From positions 25,643 to 89,642 of IMG/VR virus record IMGVR_UViG_3300042935_001795: DNA of 64,000 nucleotides; one strand, given 5' to 3'. Source of the stretch: a virus. The position numbers and the translations under genes were made by a program. A model generated the notes under the pieces. The model saw nothing but the letters and a program-made list of their open reading frames with translations. It did no database searches and was not told the DNA's origin. Every line of letters begins with the position of its first letter. The stretch's first letter is position 1. Shown here one piece after another: positions 5,541-15,893 of this stretch.

Positions 5541-5873
5541 TTATGCTAAATATTGTTTTTCATCACCTAACTTTGAATTTTTTAGGGCTGATGAAAACAT
5601 GTCAGTATATTTTAATCCATCTAAATCTTTCATTCTTTTGGCAATAAACTTTGCAACGTCTGCTCCGTCTTTTGCAACGTTCTTTCCTAAGTAGTGAATT
5701 GCATTTCTTAAATCTGTTAAATCTTTAATAGGAAACCTACCACCTGGCATCGCTTCTCCATTTTTTTCTAATTCTTTTCTCTCTTGTGAAGTATACTTTT
5801 TTTCGTATAATTCATAAGATTCATGAATCATTGATTCATTTAAAAATTCTTCGTATAGTTTAATATGTTTCAT
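5541..5873 (-). CDS. Predicted internal head protein with N-terminal capsid-targeting tag
   Basis: 110 residues. It opens with M-K-H-I-K-L-Y-E-E-F-L-N-E, which resembles the T4 internal-protein capsid-targeting sequence ending at a gp21-type (L/I-x-E) cleavage site. The mature part contains E-A-M-P-G-G-R-F-P-I-K-D-L-x-D-L-R-N-A-I followed by a K-F-I-A-K-R motif, a small helical module often seen in phage proteins (DUF6582-like). The first 38 bases of the gene are identical to those of the next upstream gene at 6411. Ejection with the DNA is inferred from the tag. Confidence 0.65.
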   Translation of the reverse strand: MKHIKLYEEFLNESMIHESYELYEKKYTSQERKELEKNGEAMPGGRFPIKDLTDLRNAIHYLGKNVAKDGADVAKFIAKRMKDLDGLKYTDMFSSALKNSKLGDEKQYLA

Positions 5874-5874
5874 C

Positions 5875-6411
5875 TTACTTTTGGTCTATTTGCATGATTT
5901 CAGAACCTCTGATTTCAACATTATTTTCTCCAATTTGGGCATCATATCCACCATAAATATCTTCTCCGCCAGCAATTGCAGTGTTTAACATACCTCCTAA
6001 TTTTTTAGAATATTTACTACCATCAGCATCATCCATAAAACCGACGTTAATTACAAAGTCTCCAGGAATTCTAATATAAAGTGGACCTCCATCTCTATTT
6101 AATCCATTAATAGTATCTGGCTCCCATGAAAGGTTTAATCCTTGAACATGAACATAAACAACTTGGTCCATGTCTCTTACTGCCTTTTCAACTTCAGCTA
6201 GAATCATTTTTTGGGCATCTTTTCCAAAATCCCACCATGCTCCATTAACTTCTTCTAAAGTATCTGCCGCGTCTCCTTCAAAAGAGACTCTTTCAATTTC
6301 TTTTTTAAAAGCCTGCATAACTTTACCAATAATACCTTTAGAGGCATACGGCCCAGTCATTCTGTAGACTTTCTCATTTAAAAATTCTTCGTATAGTTTA
6401 ATATGTTTCAT
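5875..6411 (-). CDS. Predicted internal head protein with N-terminal capsid-targeting tag
   Basis: 178 residues starting M-K-H-I-K-L-Y-E-E-F-L-N-E. The remainder has no family that I recognise. It has an amphipathic first half and a beta-rich second half with many Gly and Asp. It is one base away from the downstream gene and in the same run of tagged genes. A GATATACAA variant box lies 1-2 bases upstream of the ATG, too close for a normal leader. Confidence 0.6.
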   Translation of the reverse strand: MKHIKLYEEFLNEKVYRMTGPYASKGIIGKVMQAFKKEIERVSFEGDAADTLEEVNGAWWDFGKDAQKMILAEVEKAVRDMDQVVYVHVQGLNLSWEPDTINGLNRDGGPLYIRIPGDFVINVGFMDDADGSKYSKKLGGMLNTAIAGGEDIYGGYDAQIGENNVEIRGSEIMQIDQK

Positions 6412-6424
6412 ATTGTATATCTTA

Positions 6425-6934
6425 TTATGAATAGGCTTCGATGTCCCATTGAATTCTATCTAATGGTTTTTCGCCGTACGCTACATTTCTCTTAACCCAA
6501 TCAATAAGACCTGGTTCAAACTTGGCATTTTGGGCCATATCATATGCGTGGTCTGCACCACCATCTCCTGACATGTTTTTAATCCATTTGTCATATTCCT
6601 TTTGGTTCCATTTTTTAGGCTTAGAATGTGGTCCATTACCTGCTGTAGAAAATGCGGCCATCGATGAACTTGGAATAAATACATCAGTAAGACCTGCGGT
6701 ACCTGACTTACCATTGTCGTATCCAATCTTTTTTCTGAATTTAACTAGGGCATAATCAGCAGCCTCGATTTGACTGTTGCGTGACATTGCTCCAGTTTTT
6801 TTACCATAGGCTCTTTTAAGTTCCTCTTGTTTATCAGGGTCAGTTTCAAAGTGAATTTCTTTAATGCTATCAGTTCCCCAATCCTCATTTAAGGATTCAT
6901 TAACAAAACTTTCAAATGTAGGTATGTGTTTCAT
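6425..6934 (-). CDS. Predicted internal head protein with N-terminal tag and two cleavage-like sites
   Basis: 169 residues starting M-K-H-I-P-T-F-E-S-F-V-N-E followed at once by S-L-N-E-D, giving two successive protease-like sites (V-N-E and L-N-E). The mature part is about 150 residues, basic and charged, with no recognised domain. It lies 2 bases upstream-to-stop from the neighbouring tagged gene, in the same operon. Confidence 0.6.
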   Translation of the reverse strand: MKHIPTFESFVNESLNEDWGTDSIKEIHFETDPDKQEELKRAYGKKTGAMSRNSQIEAADYALVKFRKKIGYDNGKSGTAGLTDVFIPSSSMAAFSTAGNGPHSKPKKWNQKEYDKWIKNMSGDGGADHAYDMAQNAKFEPGLIDWVKRNVAYGEKPLDRIQWDIEAYS

Positions 6935-6936
6935 AA

Positions 6937-7281
6937 TTATCTTTGTTTTCCAATTGTTACTTGTCCCATTTGAATAGCCTTTTCGATTTGATCGTATAAC
7001 TCTTGGGCATTTTTAATATCTTTTGTGGGAATCTCAAATTCTCCTTTTTTGCAAAGAAGAACGTAATACTCACCATTGTTAGTTATATTAAAATACTCAT
7101 CTCCTGTCATAAAAGGAATTTTCTTTCCTCTAACAGAACCAGACCCTATTTCAATTGTTCCTTTAGAAGAATTTAATAGTTTAGCCACCTTGTCAAGTAT
7201 TTTATCATCCGTTGTTTTAACTCCCTCCGGATATTCTATCTTTTCATTAACAAACTGTTCGAATAGTTTAATATGTTTCAT
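6937..7281 (-). CDS. Predicted internal head protein with N-terminal capsid-targeting tag
   Basis: 114 residues starting M-K-H-I-K-L-F-E-Q-F-V-N-E. The mature part is about 100 residues, mixed alpha/beta, with a glycine-serine stretch (G-S-G-S-V-R-G) and no recognised family. It is separated by one base from the large polyprotein-like gene upstream. Confidence 0.6.
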   Translation of the reverse strand: MKHIKLFEQFVNEKIEYPEGVKTTDDKILDKVAKLLNSSKGTIEIGSGSVRGKKIPFMTGDEYFNITNNGEYYVLLCKKGEFEIPTKDIKNAQELYDQIEKAIQMGQVTIGKQR

Positions 7282-7282
7282 C

Positions 7283-9577
7283 TTACCAAGCGTAATTTTT
7301 AGCTTCTACTTTCTTAACGTAATCAACGATTGTTTTAGAACTTTCTTTTAATCTACCTTCATAGAATTTTCCGCTATAACCGGTTGCAACTTCTTTTTCA
7401 GCATCAACAACGTATCCAACGTATCTGTTATATTCATCTAAGATATTTCTCATTAAATTAGAAGCATCGCTCATTTTGATTTCTCTACCTTTAGGGTCTA
7501 GTCCAACAATAAGTTCTCCATATCTTCCTTTTTCACCTTTAGATAGTGCATCTTTAATTTGAGTAGCAAGAGTATCAATAGCTCCTAATACAACTGAATC
7601 CATCGGCATTTCAGATGCTTTTTGCGCTAAGATTTGGTTATAACGGGCTTTGTTTTCTGCTTTAAAGTCTTTGTCACTTTGAAAAGCAGTAGCTCCTCTT
7701 TTATCATTAGCTCTTTGTAACTGAAGTGATGTTGTAGAATATCTTGCTTTAAGAACATCTAAGTCAATAACGTAAACGGTATCTGCTAGTTCAGCTACTT
7801 TAGTAAGGGAGGTAATTCCTGAACCATCGTATCTTTTAGAGTCTCTTTTATCAAAACCTGCTGCATCTTCTCTAGTTTTTGTAATTTTTAAAGTTTCTCC
7901 TTTTGTATAGCTATTGTATGCAGTTGAGTACCATTCATTACTTCCGTTAGTTATTGCTAATAAGGTATTTGATTGGATAATTCCATTATTATAAGTACTT
8001 GGAATACTACCTTCGATGTATGGATTTTCTTTTTGGTTATTTACTATATAGAAGTAAACACCATTAGCTCTTTTTTCTTTACGAGCAGTTTGAGGGTCCA
8101 TTTCAATAATGTCATAATCTTCAATTTTGTCAATTGCTAATTTTGAAAAGTTATAGAATGCTCCTGCAAGGTCTTTAGTACCTGCGCTTCCTACTGAAAA
8201 AAGGTTAGCCAGTTTAGCACTTTTAAATGCCTCATTTAATGTACTTTCATTTAGTTTGTTTGCAACGAAATCCGCGAAAGATTCGTAAATAAATTTTGTT
8301 GTCATATCATTTATATTTTTATTTTCGTCTAAGTCAATTACCCAAGCATATTCAACATACTTGATAGCATCTTCTGGATTCACATCCCATTTAAGTGCCG
8401 CATCTAATACGATTTTTCTTGTGATTTTTTGGTTTGGGTATTTTGCAATTTCTTTATCAAATCCTCCAGGAACCCAAATCTTTGGGGCCTTTGTAGTGGC
8501 TTCTGAAACCATTACATTTTTAAGGATTCTTGAACCTGTTTTTGATAGTGATATTCCATCTTCAGATACGTTAAAACACTGAGCGTTTCTTCTCAACCAT
8601 CTTTTAGAATCTGTGGTCATTTCTTTAAGAATATTATTAAAATCTTCCTGTGAAACTTTACCATCTTTAATAGCCTCTAACATTCTGTTACGAACTTTAG
8701 CAGCTTTACCTACAGTAACTGCCGGATTTTTATCAGTATATTGTCTTTTGATTGTAACGTTTCTTTCATTAACTACTGATTCGTTTAAACCAAACTCTCT
8801 GATATCGTTTTGTCCATTGTCAAATGATTTTTGAATAGAGTCTAGTGCTTCTTTTCTATCGCTTGATTTTTCAAAACCAATTTCACTATCAGTAAATGCT
8901 CTTGAATATTTTTTCCATGAGTCTTTTGATAAATCAGCAACTTTTCTTAAGTTGATTGCTGTAGATTCTATACGATATCTTCCAATTGTTCCGGCTGGGT
9001 AATTGTTAGTTGATAAACCTAAAAATAATTTAGCCTCATCTAAAGAAGATTCTTTAATAATTTTATCATCTTTATGGAAAATGTATTCCATTTTCTTACC
9101 AGTTTTCTTGAATTCACCAGTATAAGAAACTTCTCCATCTTTATTTTTAAAAACTTTATCAACTACAAATTCTCCATCAGATGAAGCGTATGGAATTACA
9201 ATACTTCCTTTTTTAACGGTAGCCTCATTTGTAACTGATTCATTCGCCATCATCTTTTTAAAACCTTTTGCAATAGTTTTAATATCGTCTTTAATTTTAC
9301 CTAAAACTGGATTTTCGCGAATGGCCATATTTACAACATTACCATTTTTGTAAATGTTGTATGAACCACCATCAAATTCTTCGTCATTATAGTCTAGGTC
9401 AAAACCATCTTCCTCTAATGTTCTTTTATTTACTGCCCATTTTCCATTTTCAGGGTCTACACTAGCCGCAGCATCTGCAAATTTTTGAGCAATTTTAAGT
9501 GTCTCATCTTTAGTAAGTCCAGCAGGTCCACCATAAGTTGAGGTACTACCTTCGTTTAGGAATTCATTAAAATTCAT
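7283..9577 (-). CDS. Tagged internal-protein polyprotein with multiple prohead-protease-like sites
   Basis: 764 residues. It starts M-N-F-N-E-F-L-N-E followed by Gly, a short form of the capsid-targeting tag. Internal sites of the same type occur after E118 (E-S-V-T-N-E then A), E181 (E-S-S-L-D-E then A), E271 (E-S-V-V-N-E then R), E359 (M-V-S-E then A) and E449 (E-S-T-L-N-E then A). A second tag-like stretch, Y-E-S-F-A-D-F-V, precedes the E449 site. Cutting at all sites would give five short segments and a C-terminal domain of about 315 residues. That domain is alpha/beta, contains Y-F-Y-I-V-N-N, and matches no family that I can name. T4 Alt is a precedent for a large packaged protein, but no ADP-ribosyltransferase motif was seen. 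Confidence 0.65.
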   Translation of the reverse strand: MNFNEFLNEGSTSTYGGPAGLTKDETLKIAQKFADAAASVDPENGKWAVNKRTLEEDGFDLDYNDEEFDGGSYNIYKNGNVVNMAIRENPVLGKIKDDIKTIAKGFKKMMANESVTNEATVKKGSIVIPYASSDGEFVVDKVFKNKDGEVSYTGEFKKTGKKMEYIFHKDDKIIKESSLDEAKLFLGLSTNNYPAGTIGRYRIESTAINLRKVADLSKDSWKKYSRAFTDSEIGFEKSSDRKEALDSIQKSFDNGQNDIREFGLNESVVNERNVTIKRQYTDKNPAVTVGKAAKVRNRMLEAIKDGKVSQEDFNNILKEMTTDSKRWLRRNAQCFNVSEDGISLSKTGSRILKNVMVSEATTKAPKIWVPGGFDKEIAKYPNQKITRKIVLDAALKWDVNPEDAIKYVEYAWVIDLDENKNINDMTTKFIYESFADFVANKLNESTLNEAFKSAKLANLFSVGSAGTKDLAGAFYNFSKLAIDKIEDYDIIEMDPQTARKEKRANGVYFYIVNNQKENPYIEGSIPSTYNNGIIQSNTLLAITNGSNEWYSTAYNSYTKGETLKITKTREDAAGFDKRDSKRYDGSGITSLTKVAELADTVYVIDLDVLKARYSTTSLQLQRANDKRGATAFQSDKDFKAENKARYNQILAQKASEMPMDSVVLGAIDTLATQIKDALSKGEKGRYGELIVGLDPKGREIKMSDASNLMRNILDEYNRYVGYVVDAEKEVATGYSGKFYEGRLKESSKTIVDYVKKVEAKNYAW

Positions 9578-9601: not shown

Positions 9602-9610
9602 TTATATATC
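9602..9610 (-). promoter_or_regulatory. Late-promoter-like box GATATATAA overlapping a stop codon
   Basis: Exact nonamer, 24 bases upstream of the ATG at 9577. Its last three bases are the TAA of the upstream gene, which ends Asp-Ile-stop. Confidence 0.5.
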
Positions 9611-11473
9611 TTTGTTAATAAATTGTTCGAATGTCATAATTTCATTGGAAGCCGATTCAGCTACTACTCCCATTGCATCTTCAATTTTAGATTTTAGTTC
9701 ATTGTACATTCTATGAATTGCGTTTGGAGTTAAATTGTTAAATAGTTTTTCGTCTCCATCTAATAGCGCATTTCTAACTGCAGTAGCCGAAATATCATCG
9801 TCAGTTCTTGGAATTTCAAAAAGTCCAAAATCAGCTCTACAGTTTAATTGGTCTCTATATGCATCATTATTAACTTGATAACCATAACTTGTCATTCTAT
9901 CACTTCCCGTTCCCCAAAGTACTGGCTCATATTTAGGTCTCATTTCATTAAACATAATATCGATACCTCCGGTTGGAACTACAAATATTTCTTTAAGGAA
10001 TGGATATTGTTTTTTAACATTGTTGAACATATCAATTTGAGTCTTTTCATCGTATGGTCTGCTAAATTCATCACCTTTCTTTTTGGTTTTTGATTTAACA
10101 AGGAATACAACTACAGGGAATCCATTCTCTTTATGTATAGTTTCTAAAACTTTTGCATGTCCCAGTGTAAATGGCTGAAATCGTCCAACAAACATGTTTA
10201 CTGGTTGTTTTCCTTGTTCAACATGAGTAAGTTTAAGTGCCTCGTTTAAGTCAACTGAGGATTTAATTCTATTACGTAACATGTAATTTTGGAAATCATA
10301 GATTGCATTTTCATCAGTATTTTCAACAAATATCTTTTCATTAATTTTTTCGATGATTTCGTTTAAACGTTCCATAGTATCTGTGTCTATTAAATCTGAA
10401 GTTTTGGTTCGCTTCTTTCTAAAAGAACCTAAAATCATTTTAAAAAGTTCTGCTAAAATATCATTTGAAACATATTTTAGGGTTTTTTCATCAGTAATAT
10501 ATTTGGCGTTTAATTTAAAAGATTCTGCTGATGAAAATTCAGCACTTTCAAAATTAACTCCAATATATTTTGAAGAGTTTTTGTCGACATATTCATTAAA
10601 TATAATCGACATTATTTCAAGATATCGATAATCTGCTCTTTCGTCTTCGAGTTGAACTTCATCGATTTTAAATTGAGTTATAAATTCTAAAAAGTCAGTG
10701 ACTGCAATTTGATACATGTGACTTGAAGAGTTATCGATTGTATTTTTTCGAATAAAGTCCTCTAATTTAAAAGATTTAATAGATTTTTCATCAATAAAAT
10801 TAACAACCAATCCATCAAATTCGTCTTCAATTCCAGAATTTAGGGCAGTTTCAAATGCACTATTGTTAAAAAGTTTAACTATTTTACTAGTAAAACTTGT
10901 TTTGTCTTTTGTCTCCTCTAAATAATCAAATGTTTCGCTAAATTCTCTATCGCTCATTCCAAGTAATTCTAGTAACTCATCCCGTTGTAATTGAGATAAA
11001 TAGCCATCAAAAATTACACTTGGCCGTTGAACATCAAGAATTTTTGCCCATTTATTTAAGATAACCGGGTCATTTATAGTTTTCTTAACCTTATCGCCTT
11101 CTCCTATTTGTTGAATGTGAGTTAGGATTAAGTTATTTTTTGGAGTTTTTTGGTATTTAATTTTAGATACATTAACTTCTGGTAGGTATTCAAAACCAAA
11201 TCTCCAATCAAGTGGCATTTGGTTTTTAGTAGAGCTTGGTAAACTTTGCATATAGTTGATTGCAATCTCATATAGAGAAATAATAGTTCGGTCAACTAAA
11301 TTTAATTTGTCTGAATTTGAAGATTTAAAATATTCAAATCCATCAAGATTTCTTTTAACAAGAAATGTAGGTGCAGAAACTTTCTCAGTTACTAACACCC
11401 TATTTTTTAACATTTCAATAAAGGTTTCTCTATTGGTTTCGTTAAAATACTCTCTTAATTTTTGTAATGCCAT
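9602..11473 (-). CDS. Ligase-superfamily domain fused to an NMN-adenylyltransferase-like domain, with C-terminal capsid tag
   Basis: 623 residues. Residues 25-240 look like an RNA/DNA-ligase-type nucleotidyltransferase: V-T-E-K31-V-S-A for motif I, W-R-F-G-F-E-Y-L (90-97), D-E-F-D-G-L-V-V-N-F (217-226) for motif IV, and S-F-K-L-E-D for motif V. After a helical linker comes a nucleotidylyltransferase domain with G-R-F-Q-P-F-T-L-G-H (430-439) and I-S-A-T-A-V-R, the HxGH-class and ISxTxxR motifs of NadM/NMNAT enzymes. Protease-like sites sit at L-N-E411 then A, exactly between the two domains, and at S-A-S-N-E611 before a final 12-residue I-M-T-F-E-Q-F-I-N-K-D-I that copies the capsid tag at the C-terminus. 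I infer a packaged enzyme cut into two. It overlaps the next upstream ligase-like gene by 1-3 bases. Confidence 0.65.
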   Translation of the reverse strand: MALQKLREYFNETNRETFIEMLKNRVLVTEKVSAPTFLVKRNLDGFEYFKSSNSDKLNLVDRTIISLYEIAINYMQSLPSSTKNQMPLDWRFGFEYLPEVNVSKIKYQKTPKNNLILTHIQQIGEGDKVKKTINDPVILNKWAKILDVQRPSVIFDGYLSQLQRDELLELLGMSDREFSETFDYLEETKDKTSFTSKIVKLFNNSAFETALNSGIEDEFDGLVVNFIDEKSIKSFKLEDFIRKNTIDNSSSHMYQIAVTDFLEFITQFKIDEVQLEDERADYRYLEIMSIIFNEYVDKNSSKYIGVNFESAEFSSAESFKLNAKYITDEKTLKYVSNDILAELFKMILGSFRKKRTKTSDLIDTDTMERLNEIIEKINEKIFVENTDENAIYDFQNYMLRNRIKSSVDLNEALKLTHVEQGKQPVNMFVGRFQPFTLGHAKVLETIHKENGFPVVVFLVKSKTKKKGDEFSRPYDEKTQIDMFNNVKKQYPFLKEIFVVPTGGIDIMFNEMRPKYEPVLWGTGSDRMTSYGYQVNNDAYRDQLNCRADFGLFEIPRTDDDISATAVRNALLDGDEKLFNNLTPNAIHRMYNELKSKIEDAMGVVAESASNEIMTFEQFINKDI

Positions 11474-12762
11474 TATCTTCCGTATTTTATAATTCCCATT
11501 AATTGATTAATTGCAGCGAATGTTCCTGTTAATTTGTACATGTGTCCTTTGTATGAAAATACGATACCTTCAGTCGGTATAATAGATTGGATTCCTCCAA
11601 TTCTCTCTAATCTGTCAAGTTCTTTTGCAACCTTTTCGATTTGAGTAAGGTCTCCATTTAGTTTAATTTTGTCGGCTTCGGTTCGGATTTCGTTATGTAG
11701 TCTTTGCATTTCTTTTTCAGGAGAAGCAGCAACAAAATTACTTGCATTCTTTAAGATAACACTTCCCAATTCTAAGAAAAGGTCTTCAAATGGTCGAATG
11801 TTTTCTTTAAATTTTACTTTAAAGTCCTCTTTGTCGAACTTTTTAACGGCTTCGGCTTGTTCCTTTGTTAACTCCTTGTCTAAAGAACGCATGTTTAATG
11901 TTTTCTTGTCGTCATATGCCCATCTTAACAATAAACCTTCTTTGATATTCTGGGGTAGGTCACCAAATATTGTTTCAATTTGCTCTCTCCACCACATTTC
12001 ATGGTAGCGAGCAACTGAGTCAGCATCGGTTAATTTATAACGATTTTTAAGAGTATCTAGTTTTCCTAAGAATTTAGACTGATTCTCTTCAAAATTTATA
12101 TCTTTTTGTAGTTTAATAACTTGTGGAGGGATTATTGTAAATGTTTTTCCAATGTCAGCATTTAAAGATTTAAGAACTCCGGTAACACTTTTTGCCGCAC
12201 TATTGTCGTCTCCAACTATATTTCCTGCGCCATCAGTCTTCTTGATACCATGAAATTGAATTACGTCAACGTCATAGTGAATAACGTTAGGGTTAGCAGA
12301 ATATATCAACTCCATGTTCATGAAGTTCAGACCATTCTGGAACACTTCCTCTTGTGTTTTAGCCGGTAACTTTATAAGCAGAGTTGCTAAATCAGTGGCT
12401 GCAAATTGGAAAGTATCTTGTACTAATTTACTTGCATGTCCTTCAAATTTATTTTGAAAATCCTTAAGGCTCATTGGAGTTTGCAACTCAGTTTTATTTC
12501 TGGCAAATTTAACTTCACCATTTTGAATAGTTGCAAAAACGTTTTGACCGTCAGTTTTTTCAGTAGGCTCTTCTTCGAAGTTTAATTCTCCTTGAAGTCC
12601 ACCAATAATCATATTCTTGAAGTCTCCGAATGTTAGGTCATTGTTATCGAATGGATGAGACATGTGTCCGGCAGCTCCACCTTCTAATAGTAACCGTTCA
12701 TTCAATTTAACTTCGTACCTTTCGGTTATGAACCGGTTAAAATTAAGGATTCTTTTTTTCAT
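11473..12762 (-). CDS. Tagged ligase-superfamily nucleotidyltransferase
   Basis: 429 residues. The N-terminus I-L-N-F-N-R-F-I-T-E14 then V-K-L-N-E22 then L-L-L-E27-G-G carries up to three protease-like sites and the F-x-x-F-I-x-E capsid tag. The enzyme core has E-K69-T-D-G-Q-N-V (motif I, KxDG), a M-N-M-E-L-I-Y strand, and near the C-terminus E-G-I-V-F-S-Y-K-G then Y-K-L-T-G (motifs IV and V). The spacing between motifs I and IV is long, so a helical insertion lies between. ATP-dependent adenylation of a nucleic acid or other substrate is inferred from the superfamily. It is adjacent to the ligase-NMNAT fusion, suggesting that the two act together after injection. Confidence 0.65.
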   Translation of the reverse strand: MKKRILNFNRFITERYEVKLNERLLLEGGAAGHMSHPFDNNDLTFGDFKNMIIGGLQGELNFEEEPTEKTDGQNVFATIQNGEVKFARNKTELQTPMSLKDFQNKFEGHASKLVQDTFQFAATDLATLLIKLPAKTQEEVFQNGLNFMNMELIYSANPNVIHYDVDVIQFHGIKKTDGAGNIVGDDNSAAKSVTGVLKSLNADIGKTFTIIPPQVIKLQKDINFEENQSKFLGKLDTLKNRYKLTDADSVARYHEMWWREQIETIFGDLPQNIKEGLLLRWAYDDKKTLNMRSLDKELTKEQAEAVKKFDKEDFKVKFKENIRPFEDLFLELGSVILKNASNFVAASPEKEMQRLHNEIRTEADKIKLNGDLTQIEKVAKELDRLERIGGIQSIIPTEGIVFSYKGHMYKLTGTFAAINQLMGIIKYGR

Positions 12763-12763
12763 A

Positions 12764-13240
12764 TTATAAGCTTTCTAATTTTTTACTTAAATCAAGTATG
12801 TTTGCATTAATTCTTATTTTTTGATTATCAAGGTCAAGAGCTGACATTTTAAGAGTTGCTATTTGGGCTTGAATTGCAGATTTTGGGTCATCTACTTTTT
12901 GGTTTAAGTCATTAACTTTATTTCTAAGTTCTTTTCTTTTTAAGAGTAGATCGGATGCTTTTAATGAAAGATCAGCTCTTGCATCAGAGTAATTAGATTC
13001 TGCAACACCATTATTTCCTTCCATTCCATCATATACAGAGTTTAAGTTTTCTAAAGAAACTGTTAATTGAGAAAACATCCAAGACTCTAGTTGTTCTCCT
13101 TCTGTCATTCTCTGTTTAATCATGCCTGCATATTCTGCAATTTTTTGAAGTTGACCCATAGTCATATCATTTAATTCGGCTAGGGTATCTCGACCCTCTG
13201 CTTCATTTAAGAACTCTTCAAATAGGTTAATATGTTTCAT
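12764..13240 (-). CDS. Predicted internal head protein, coiled-coil, with N-terminal tag
   Basis: 158 residues from the chosen start M-K-H-I-N-L-F-E-E-F-L-N-E followed by Ala. An in-frame ATG 39 bases further upstream would add an untypical hydrophobic leader lying over a terminator, so I use the tag start. The mature part is almost entirely helical with heptad character (residues 75-158), similar in size to T4 prohead core and internal proteins. ATTATATTTACA lies 2 bases upstream of the ATG. Confidence 0.65.
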   Translation of the reverse strand: MKHINLFEEFLNEAEGRDTLAELNDMTMGQLQKIAEYAGMIKQRMTEGEQLESWMFSQLTVSLENLNSVYDGMEGNNGVAESNYSDARADLSLKASDLLLKRKELRNKVNDLNQKVDDPKSAIQAQIATLKMSALDLDNQKIRINANILDLSKKLESL

Positions 13241-13242
13241 AG

Positions 13243-13254
13243 TGTAAATATAAT
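13243..13254 (-). promoter_or_regulatory. Post-terminator motif ATTATATTTACA
   Basis: Exact copy of the 12-mer, directly after the terminator at 13258-13287 and 2 bases before the ATG at 13240. If it is a promoter, the mRNA would be leaderless or start inside the gene. Confidence 0.35.
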
Positions 13255-13257
13255 AAA

Positions 13258-13287
13258 AATACCTGACATGGTAAAACATCAGGTATT
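13258..13287 (-). terminator. Rho-independent terminator
   Basis: Nine-base stem (13258-13266 with 13279-13287, arm AATACCTGA) and a 12-base loop, followed on the minus strand by a T-rich stretch. It ends the large polyprotein transcript. Confidence 0.7.
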
Positions 13288-13304: not shown

Positions 13305-15893
13305 TTAAGATTCCTGAGCGATCATTGCATCAATAATATCGAATGAGATATATCCTTTTGCTTTAACAAATTCTTTTGCAAGTTTAAGGACTTTCTTTTC
13401 TCCAGCCGGTGTTACCTCATTATCTGGACCATCTTCATTGTTATCATTCCAATCTTCAACGGCAGCTTGTACGTCTTGTTGGATTTGCATACCAGTTGGG
13501 TTTTTCGTTTTTTGAGCTCCTTCTTGGTAATCTTCCCAGTAGTTCGCATCAAATCCTTCAGTAACTACTGATTCTCCTAATGAGCTTGTTAACGTTCCAA
13601 CACATGCTCCGTAATCATCACCACATTTTTTAAGAATTCCATCAACTACTTCAGTAGCTTTAGCCTCATCAAAGTCATCTCCAAATGCTTTTTTCAAAAC
13701 AGCCATTGCGTATTCTTTAAATTCATCATCAGAACTAACTTCAGCTTCATTAACTATTGATTCAAAAGTAGCTGTAATTCCTTTAATTTTATATTCCTTT
13801 GATAATGCTCCTAATTTATTATAAAGTTCATCTAGTTCATATTCAACTAAATGCTTATAGCCTTTTTTAATGTTAATGTCTGCATTTCCAGATCTTGCCA
13901 TATAATCATCTTTACCTTCAGCAACTACAGATTCTTTAGCAGATCCAGCGGCTTTAGCTCTTTTTGCTTGTAGTTTTTTAAGTTTTTCTGTTTCTTCTTG
14001 GCGAGCTTTAAAGGCTTTTAATTTTTTTAATTGTTCAGCTCTACTTGTTTTTTCTGCGCTTGGATCTTGACCTTCAGTTAAAGATTCTTGAACATTGTTT
14101 TCCCACCATGCTTTAAGTGCTTCAAAATCTTTACGACCCATGTTAGAAAGAGTATACTCTACTATGTCATTATCGTAATCATCTGCTTCATCTTTGAAAC
14201 CTCCTGGAGTATCGATGTAATCTTTACCCATGATTCTTTTAATTCTAACCTCTGGCATACCATCAATTTCCTCTAAGAACTCTTCAAAGTCTTCAGTTGA
14301 TTTGAATTTTTCAGCTTCATTAACTACTGATTCAATTAATTCCATATTGTATGCATTTGAAATATCTGTTTTAATTTCTCCAGTTTCTTTTGAATGCAAT
14401 TTCATAGTTTTACCATCAGGATTTAATTTAATGAATGTAACTTCACCATAGTCTGATGTGTATTTGTGGTTTGGCTTCAAGTCTTTTGCTTTACCTTCGT
14501 AAACAGTTCCAGCAACTTCTTCAGGTTTGTTAAATTTCTTAACAGATTTTTTAACAGTATTTAATTGTCTAACAACAGAATCAATAACTCCAGTATCAAT
14601 ATCGTTTCCAGCAGCAGCGCTGCTATATAAGTTAGTTAAATTTTGAGATGCTAAATATAATTCATTTCCAATAACATCTTTTGGTAATCGGTTGAATGCT
14701 TCAGAAACTACTAATTCTAAATCTTTATCTTTATCGGCGATTGTTGCATCAAGTTCAGCTTCTAGGGCTTTCTTCTGAGCAGTCATCTCTTTTAATTTTC
14801 CAAGTAACATTTCTTTAGCAGGACCTTCAGCGGCTTTCCAATTTTGTGCGGTAGCCTGCATTGTAGTTGTCAGTTTAGACCAGTCATATTGAATTTTAGC
14901 AATTGTACGAGCCTCATTAACCAAAGATTCATTTTTCTTTTGGCTTGCTTTTAAATCTGCAAGTTCTCCTTTTAATTTAGGGTCTAATTGTCTTTCAATT
15001 CCCCAGTTAAAACTTGCATTTATCAACATATTCAATGGTAAGTTTTCATTTTTCTTACCAAACGCAGATGTACTAATCCAGTTTAAATAATGGTCAGCTA
15101 ATTCTTTTGATAATTTGATACCTTCTGCTTCTGAAGAATCTCCATCAACAATTCCTTTAAGTAATTTTTTAGCCATTCCATGCTTACCTTCATTTAAAGA
15201 TTCTTGTATGAAACTAATATCTTTAAGATAAAACTCATGGTCTGAACCATCCTGAGTATATCCTATAAAAGAATCACCTTTGTCACCTTTTAATTCTGCA
15301 GGGTTAACTGAGTACCAATCGTTTCCAACAAAAACTTCTACAGGTTTTCCACCAATTTGAGTATAAAGGTCATTTGCAGTTTTACCAGTAAATTTACTTC
15401 TTTTAGCCTCTTCAATTTCGTAAGTTTCACCATCAACTTCAAATTCATCTTCGTCATCTTCTTTTGCTTTTTTAACAGCAGCTCCAAACGCATTACCTTC
15501 TTTAAGACCTGTGTCTTTTTTAATGGTTACTTTATATTTTTTACCATTAAATTCAAACTCAGATTTTCCATCTTGTTTAGCTTTACCGGCTGCAAATATA
15601 AATGCATTTCCCTCTTCTAGTTTTTTAGGTTCTCCTAATTTATTAAGTTCGTCTTCAATATCTTCTGCTTCATCTTCTGAAACGTTTCCAAACATTTTGT
15701 TAATTAAGGCTTGTTTTTTCTCTTCATCTAATTCAGATAGAGATGTTAAACCCATTTCATCAAGGATTGCTCCAATTTTACCAACAGTTTCCTGTCTTTT
15801 TGCATTGTTTGTTTCTCTTAGTTTCATCGTAGCTTCCTGATTCTTAACTTCAGTAAAACTCTTAAATGTAGAGATTTTGTTAACTTGTGCCAT
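13305..15893 (-). CDS. Large internal-protein polyprotein with repeated prohead-protease-like sites
   Basis: 862 residues, highly charged and largely helical. The N-terminus I-S-T-F-K-S-F-T-E is a tag-like peptide. Seven strong sites of the form E-S-x-(x)-x-E before Ala or Gly end at E235, E327, E526, E607, E659, E716 and E779 (for example E-S-V-V-N-E then A, E-S-L-T-E then G). Weaker sites end at E94, E132, E162 and E398. A 35-40 residue unit beginning E-G-N-A-F is repeated in tandem at 94-131 and 132-165. Full cleavage would give roughly eight to twelve small proteins. T4 gp21 cleaves core and internal proteins at similar (L/I)-x-E sites, so an internal-head polyprotein is the best reading; a scaffold/core protein is an alternative. 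Confidence 0.65.
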   Translation of the reverse strand: MAQVNKISTFKSFTEVKNQEATMKLRETNNAKRQETVGKIGAILDEMGLTSLSELDEEKKQALINKMFGNVSEDEAEDIEDELNKLGEPKKLEEGNAFIFAAGKAKQDGKSEFEFNGKKYKVTIKKDTGLKEGNAFGAAVKKAKEDDEDEFEVDGETYEIEEAKRSKFTGKTANDLYTQIGGKPVEVFVGNDWYSVNPAELKGDKGDSFIGYTQDGSDHEFYLKDISFIQESLNEGKHGMAKKLLKGIVDGDSSEAEGIKLSKELADHYLNWISTSAFGKKNENLPLNMLINASFNWGIERQLDPKLKGELADLKASQKKNESLVNEARTIAKIQYDWSKLTTTMQATAQNWKAAEGPAKEMLLGKLKEMTAQKKALEAELDATIADKDKDLELVVSEAFNRLPKDVIGNELYLASQNLTNLYSSAAAGNDIDTGVIDSVVRQLNTVKKSVKKFNKPEEVAGTVYEGKAKDLKPNHKYTSDYGEVTFIKLNPDGKTMKLHSKETGEIKTDISNAYNMELIESVVNEAEKFKSTEDFEEFLEEIDGMPEVRIKRIMGKDYIDTPGGFKDEADDYDNDIVEYTLSNMGRKDFEALKAWWENNVQESLTEGQDPSAEKTSRAEQLKKLKAFKARQEETEKLKKLQAKRAKAAGSAKESVVAEGKDDYMARSGNADINIKKGYKHLVEYELDELYNKLGALSKEYKIKGITATFESIVNEAEVSSDDEFKEYAMAVLKKAFGDDFDEAKATEVVDGILKKCGDDYGACVGTLTSSLGESVVTEGFDANYWEDYQEGAQKTKNPTGMQIQQDVQAAVEDWNDNNEDGPDNEVTPAGEKKVLKLAKEFVKAKGYISFDIIDAMIAQES

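Follow-up and report, generated by a model that had tools for sequence, protein, structure and literature searches.

An RNA-ligase-fold and NMN adenylyltransferase-type fusion with a conserved C-terminal tag, a candidate internal head protein of uncultured phages

The protein considered here is encoded in a 64,000-nucleotide stretch of IMG/VR virus record IMGVR_UViG_3300042935_001795 (the window) and combines an N-terminal RNA-ligase fold with a NadM-type NMN adenylyltransferase (NMNAT) domain, followed at the extreme C-terminus by a short conserved tag which probably directs it into the viral head. With a probability of roughly 0.6, it is a prohead-targeted internal head (ejection) protein, probably split into its two halves by the prohead protease. 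An earlier note on the same DNA had outlined this arrangement and is partly confirmed, with its C-terminal cut site corrected and the adjacent ligase gene, which it had missed, added (Table 1).

The gene and its relatives

The open reading frame holds up as a real minus-strand gene at the coordinates first assigned to it. An alignment-based scan of IMG/VR viral contigs returned 175 relatives, 80 of which were kept and, joined with earlier matches, gave an alignment of 84 sequences; the dereplicated set comprises 44 viral relatives at below 95% identity, the window's own protein among them, and in addition a distant full-length homologue from the 462 kb phage LR756500. No relatives of the protein were found among the bacterial and archaeal genomes searched, and a search of isolated phages turned up none related to the window at the DNA level. 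The owners of the gene appear to be a marine and freshwater phage family, which the best explanation places, with somewhat better than even confidence, in a large T4-like phage lineage. The full-length AlphaFold model (pLDDT 76.8) matches both Rnl2 and the NadM NMN adenylyltransferase.

Table 1. Coordinates of the fusion gene, its parts and its tagged neighbours in the window (a slash marks a putative cut)
Feature	Position	Strand	Basis
Focal gene, 623 aa	9602..11473	minus	ORF list
Rnl2-type RNA-ligase-fold domain, residues 1-383	10325..11473	minus	AlphaFold and Foldseek
Motif I, residues 30-37 EKVSAPTF, K31 putative adenylyl-accepting lysine	11363..11386	minus	Alignment of 44 relatives
Disordered linker, residues 384-411, ending in putative site DLNE/ALK after E411	10241..10324	minus	pLDDT and conservation
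NadM-type NMN adenylyltransferase domain, residues 416-602, GRFQPFTLGH and ISATAVR	9668..10228	minus	Pfam, NCBIfam, fold match
Disordered linker, residues 603-612, putative tag-removal site VAE606/S	9638..9667	minus	pLDDT and site enrichment
C-terminal tag MTFEQFINKDI, residues 613-623, predicted helix 615-622	9605..9637	minus	Matrix score, conservation, model
Downstream cassette genes, N-terminal tags YEEFLNE, YEEFLNE, FESFVNE, FEQFVNE, FNEFLNE	5541..9577	minus	Tag list
Upstream cassette gene, N-terminal tag FEEFLNE	12764..13279	minus	Tag list
Neighbour gene, 429 aa, N-terminal tag NFNRFITE and complete ligase motifs	11473..12762	minus	Motifs
N-terminal tag of the neighbour ligase	12721..12762	minus	Tag list

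A tag shared with the neighbouring genes

N-terminal tags such as KLYEEFLNE are present on window genes 5541, 5875, 6425, 6937, 7283, 11473, 12764, 21106, 49576 and 63391, and the motif at the C-terminus of the fusion protein matches those of its neighbours, so that a short terminal tag is common to it and to other putatively head-targeted proteins of the same phage. On a scoring matrix trained on the N-terminal tags of other window genes, the C-terminus reaches 16.2 bits, on a par with the tags used for training; 9 of 183,790 interior 7-mers attain this score. At identities as low as about 51%, the 44 complete relatives all end in [MLQ]T[FY]xx[FY][ILVM], which bears out the earlier placement of the tag at the C-terminus. 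At the protein's own N-terminus, LREYFNE resembles a tag at first sight but was rejected as one, with a score of only 3.5 bits and a non-conserved Glu.

The two classes of tag differ in the residue that follows the core: 117 of the 130 N-terminal tags of neighbouring genes have Glu there, the 44 C-terminal copies never (K, N, S or H instead). Such a loss would be expected if binding were kept and a useless cleavage residue dropped. In other loci, N-terminal tags are concentrated on the genes from position -1 to position +4 relative to the focal gene, which across loci is almost the only gene with the C-terminal version. Possible further C-terminal tags end four short proteins of other contigs (L004 5755-6303, L013 15308-15856, L017 14260-14643 and L045 7117-7683), with the tag-like endings FKSFEEFVKK, FKSFEDFIKD, FIKTFNEFKTEYK and FKTFEQYTNKDSK, respectively.

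Putative cleavage sites and the prohead protease

Both linkers listed in Table 1 are predicted to be disordered (pLDDT below 50). The first ends in the L-N-E then A site at 411 to which the earlier note had drawn attention, and the alignment sustains it as a conserved site between the domains: [LIV]xE/[AG] fits in 44 of 44 dereplicated relatives, the P2 residue is variable, with N, T, L, S or I at position 410, and E411 is the sole [LIVM]xE/[AGS] site across the 623 aa that 90% or more of the sequences retain. By the same criterion, four of five untagged control genes have no such site and the fifth, the primase, has one. A fixed hydrophobic residue at P3 next to a variable N410 is the pattern to be expected of an [hydrophobic]-x-Glu protease site, which E411 may therefore represent.

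In the second linker, a [LIVMA]xE[SGANKRT] site is found in 37 of 44 relatives versus 12.6 +/- 2.9 after shuffling, the window copy reading GVVAE606/S. This makes VxE606 a better supported candidate for tag removal than SNE611, which had originally been proposed; the Glu of the latter is Asp in several close orthologues and lost elsewhere, and SNE611 was rejected as the main cut site for its lack of conservation. Two long proteins of the window (13305-15893 and 7283-9577) contain repeated internal ES-x-VNE/A-type sites and look like polyproteins for the same protease.

A T4 gp21-type S77 prohead protease occurs in near relatives and scores over the cut-off in 7 of 10 records searched, and the gp23 major capsid protein is likewise found in near relatives, in 7 of 10 records; the capsid and protease genes lie outside the window. 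In the window's own record, an 89.6 kb fragment, neither a prohead protease nor a NAMPT-like gene was found. In one contig (L027 1441-3348), a single ORF of about 646 aa seemingly joins the S77 prohead protease to a long repetitive stretch, which may be the scaffold or core protein.

The distant homologue of LR756500 retains E-A-L without the hydrophobic P3 residue and lacks the tag, and this means that E411-A-L could be kept for structural reasons. It fits the alternative that the protein is an ordinary bifunctional enzyme of the infected cell which is never packaged, with E-A-L as a structural element that opens the NMNAT domain and the helix at the C-terminus serving assembly or docking; the location of the gene among replication and tagged accessory genes, away from gp21-23, is also in line with it. 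On the other hand, the tag matches the neighbours' N-terminal tags in all but the cleavage residue and belongs to a cassette of tagged proteins, and both cleavage-type sites fall into predicted disordered linkers. An enzyme that stays out of the particle is consequently considered improbable, and packaging is the preferred reading.

The NMN adenylyltransferase half

Pfam CTP_transf_like (PF01467) matches residues 427-567 with an E-value of 8.6e-7, two PHROGs 'cytidyltransferase' families match the protein, and among NCBIfam models the archaeal/NadM NMNATs are closest, all under their equivalog cut-offs (28-37 bits, versus 181 for TIGR01527). By fold, this half matches NadM 2qjo and the archaeal NMNAT 1m8k, with a TM-score of 0.67 to the archaeal NMNAT target; it has a HIGH-superfamily fold with the [HT]xGH and ISxTxxR motifs. 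The HxGH-class and I-S-A-T-A-V-R motifs noted earlier at 430-560 thus prove to belong to an NMNAT domain by Pfam, NCBIfam and fold. In 44 of 44 relatives, GRFQPFT[LI]GH and ISATxVRNA are invariant save for L or I at position 437, and the half as a whole is under stronger constraint than the ligase half. The invariant motifs suggest that residues 416-602 are active as an NMNAT.

The ligase-fold half and the neighbouring ligase

Modelled separately, residues 1-402 reach a pLDDT of 82.6, and Foldseek places T4 Rnl2 (2hvr) first among PDB matches (E 1.3e-7, probability 1.00), nearly all of the top 45 being RNA, tRNA or DNA ligases; whole-chain TM-scores are low (0.3-0.4), as is expected with differently placed subdomains. 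The model thereby indicates the nucleotidyltransferase fold of the ligase superfamily, the absence of which had been named in advance as grounds for abandoning the proposal. A sequence-only search of solved structures with this half matched no solved ligase, and profile comparison detected no homology to the neighbour ligase.

Of the ligase-superfamily motifs claimed at 25-240, the fold is borne out, and motif I turns out to be degenerate. Among the 44 dereplicated relatives E30 is kept in all and K31 in 43, position 33 holds D or N in just two and in most cases S, A or Q, and at position 34 the usual G has mostly given way to A; elsewhere, E/D95 (44/44), D220 (38/44) and K236 (44/44) are kept. 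The lysine is replaced by N in one subclade (L007, L009, L015) and in LR756500. A large stand-alone family in huge phages (L125-L204, L018-L021) is homologous to the ligase-fold half by profile comparison (probability 100) and reads ED[IV]QGS, with the catalytic Lys replaced by Asp in 74 of 80 members. As motif I is without D/N and mostly without G, and as its lysine is replaced in some relatives, the case for an active enzyme is weakened, and catalysis by this half is putative only.

The gene directly upstream, a ligase to judge by its motifs (EKTDGQN, FARNK, NMELIY, TEGIVF and KLTG), also has a conserved LLE/GG site at E27. In another contig the corresponding ligase gene (L053 508-3012) is split directly after the motif I lysine (EPTEK/C...VHN/TDGQN, slashes marking the junctions) by an apparent split intein, and a free-standing 281-aa ORF between the ligase/intein halves (L053 1008-1853) possibly encodes a homing endonuclease.

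These observations bear on whether the Rnl2 fold of the fusion protein is a pseudo-ligase, that is an RNA- or protein-binding platform for which the adjacent tagged ligase supplies catalysis. The degenerate motif I, the loss of the lysine in the relatives and stand-alone homologues listed above, the intact set of motifs next door and the faster evolution of the N-domain compared with the NMNAT half all speak for it. K31, K236, E/D95 and D220 are, however, kept in the viral clade beyond the needs of a dead fold, and the motif I of T4 Rnl2 is itself non-canonical. A catalytically dead N-domain is not accepted for the window's clade, given K31 in 43 of 44, but is retained as a serious rival with odds that fall just short of even.

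Ligase and NMNAT-like domains meet in other phages as well. A neighbour-type ligase is fused to an NMNAT-like domain in Mel-JY01 and LR756508, and in CP220 an NMNAT-like domain is linked with a region that contains a KYDG motif and weakly matches Pfam RNA_ligase, so that, with the focal protein, the pairing recurs in several architectures. Short of systematic scoring, no C-terminal tag was noticed in these three fusions.

A possible link to NAD+ restoration

Three near relatives (G001, G002 and G003) encode a NAMPT-family protein. In the vicinity of this NAMPT/Namat-like gene are one gene resembling PRPP synthetase and another with a weak Macro-domain match (L114-L116, L122-L124). The cluster fits either canonical salvage with NMNAT as the last step or NARP1, which makes NAD+ without NMNAT. 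The best solved match of the NAMPT-family protein, 9w5x/9w5w, is taken for Namat, since R40, F392 and Y396 in the numbering published for that enzyme (PMC12774641) land on the right residues; in the protein of the three relatives F392 and Y396 of the clamp are kept and R40 is replaced by K. With two of the three clamp residues checked retained, a simple NARP2 assignment is not accepted. In the 735 kb phage LR756501, a nicotinate phosphoribosyltransferase adjoins an ORF with an SGGIDS motif, a possible NAD synthase (L112, L121), and a complete PRPP synthetase is found elsewhere in the genome.

NARP2, an anti-NAD-depletion protein, has been reported in particles of vibrio phage 6E351A (PMC12028318), which sets a precedent for packaged NAD+ enzymes. 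Together with the NAMPT/Namat-like and PRPP-synthetase-like genes of the three near relatives, this gives the NAD link indirect support, and a role of the focal protein in NAD restoration is plausible. Within the open-access subset of the literature, the passages considered from reviews on multi-domain injected phage proteins (PMC5512222) and on phage NAD+ systems (PMC9503650) do not describe a ligase-NMNAT fusion.

The NMNAT-like domain might instead serve the ligase and not cellular NAD+, by supplying it with NAD+ as the AMP donor or by adenylylating a phosphorylated RNA end or a small molecule in RNA repair. That the focal protein, Mel-JY01, LR756508 and, by a weak match, CP220 all bring the two domain types together, in one chain or side by side, is compatible with this, as are the missed equivalog cut-offs; the GRFQP...GH signature nevertheless indicates a NadM-type NMNAT, as does the best fold match, and the salvage-type genes of the near relatives indicate NAD+, which renders a service to the ligase unlikely.

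Proposed course of events

In the preferred reading of a packaged and processed precursor, the C-terminal helix would be a displaced copy of the neighbours' N-terminal capsid-targeting tag and would dock the precursor on the prohead core. A T4 gp21-type S77 protease would detach the tag near E606, within the second disordered linker, and, as site conservation suggests in both cases, would also cut after E411, thus freeing the Rnl2-fold domain and the NMNAT domain, which would enter the cell with the DNA. There the NMNAT, if active as its motifs imply, would make NAD+ at once from NMN and ATP, and the ligase-fold half and the adjacent N-tagged ligase would act on RNA ends or as an RNA-binding partner. 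That such a C-tagged polyprotein, cut between its domains, delivers an RNA-ligase-fold protein and an NAD+ synthase with the genome for RNA repair and NAD+ restoration before phage gene expression is a tentative proposal, with the odds somewhat against it.

If this account is true, capsid targeting works from either end of the cargo and a single precursor can supply the head with two separate enzymes. The particle would then come pre-loaded with two known counters to host defences, NAD+ restoration and RNA repair, which would not have to await synthesis after infection, and the tag would serve as a simple sequence handle to predict which proteins a large group of uncultured phages injects.

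Comparison with known systems

The T4 Rnl2 family shares with residues 1-383 the fold and, in most members of the focal family, the motif I lysine, a motif IV-like D-G and a motif V-like lysine, whereas the focal motif I is degenerate, its lysine is absent from some relatives and the second motif V lysine is replaced by Glu. With NadM and the phage NMNATs of NARP2-type salvage, the protein has in common the GRFQPFxxGH and ISATxVR motifs, the fold and, in three near relatives, a NAMPT-family partner; unlike them, it is without a Nudix domain and fused to a ligase fold, and the partner looks as much like Namat as like NAMPT. The 'cytidylyltransferase'-annotated fusions of Microcystis phage Mel-JY01 (WWT39297), LR756508 and Campylobacter phage CP220 (gp026) equally combine a HIGH-type nucleotidyltransferase with a ligase-type domain, but differ in domain order or ligase family.

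The CTS tags of T4 are N-terminal. As with the T4 internal head proteins and Alt, several accessory proteins of the focal phage have a short amphipathic terminal tag with putative cleavage after [hydrophobic]-x-Glu, and an S77 protease and gp23 as in the T4 gp21 system occur in its near relatives. In contrast to the T4 CTS proteins, the focal tag is at the extreme C-terminus and has lost its own cleavage Glu, an extra conserved site lies between two enzyme domains, and the cargo is an RNA-ligase fold plus an NMNAT. The statement that a C-terminal tag departs from the T4 arrangement hence applies to the CTS but not to every T4 head protein, as Alt also undergoes a cut close to its C-terminus, at LTE-619, which costs it 63 C-terminal residues (PMC5694885). 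Beyond T4, a C-terminal targeting propeptide removed by the prohead protease has been proposed as probable for SPN3US gp245 (PMC7411985). There, it is the protease itself of a phiKZ-type phage that carries a propeptide of 64 residues, whereas in the present case an enzyme cargo would be directed to the head by a tag of 11.
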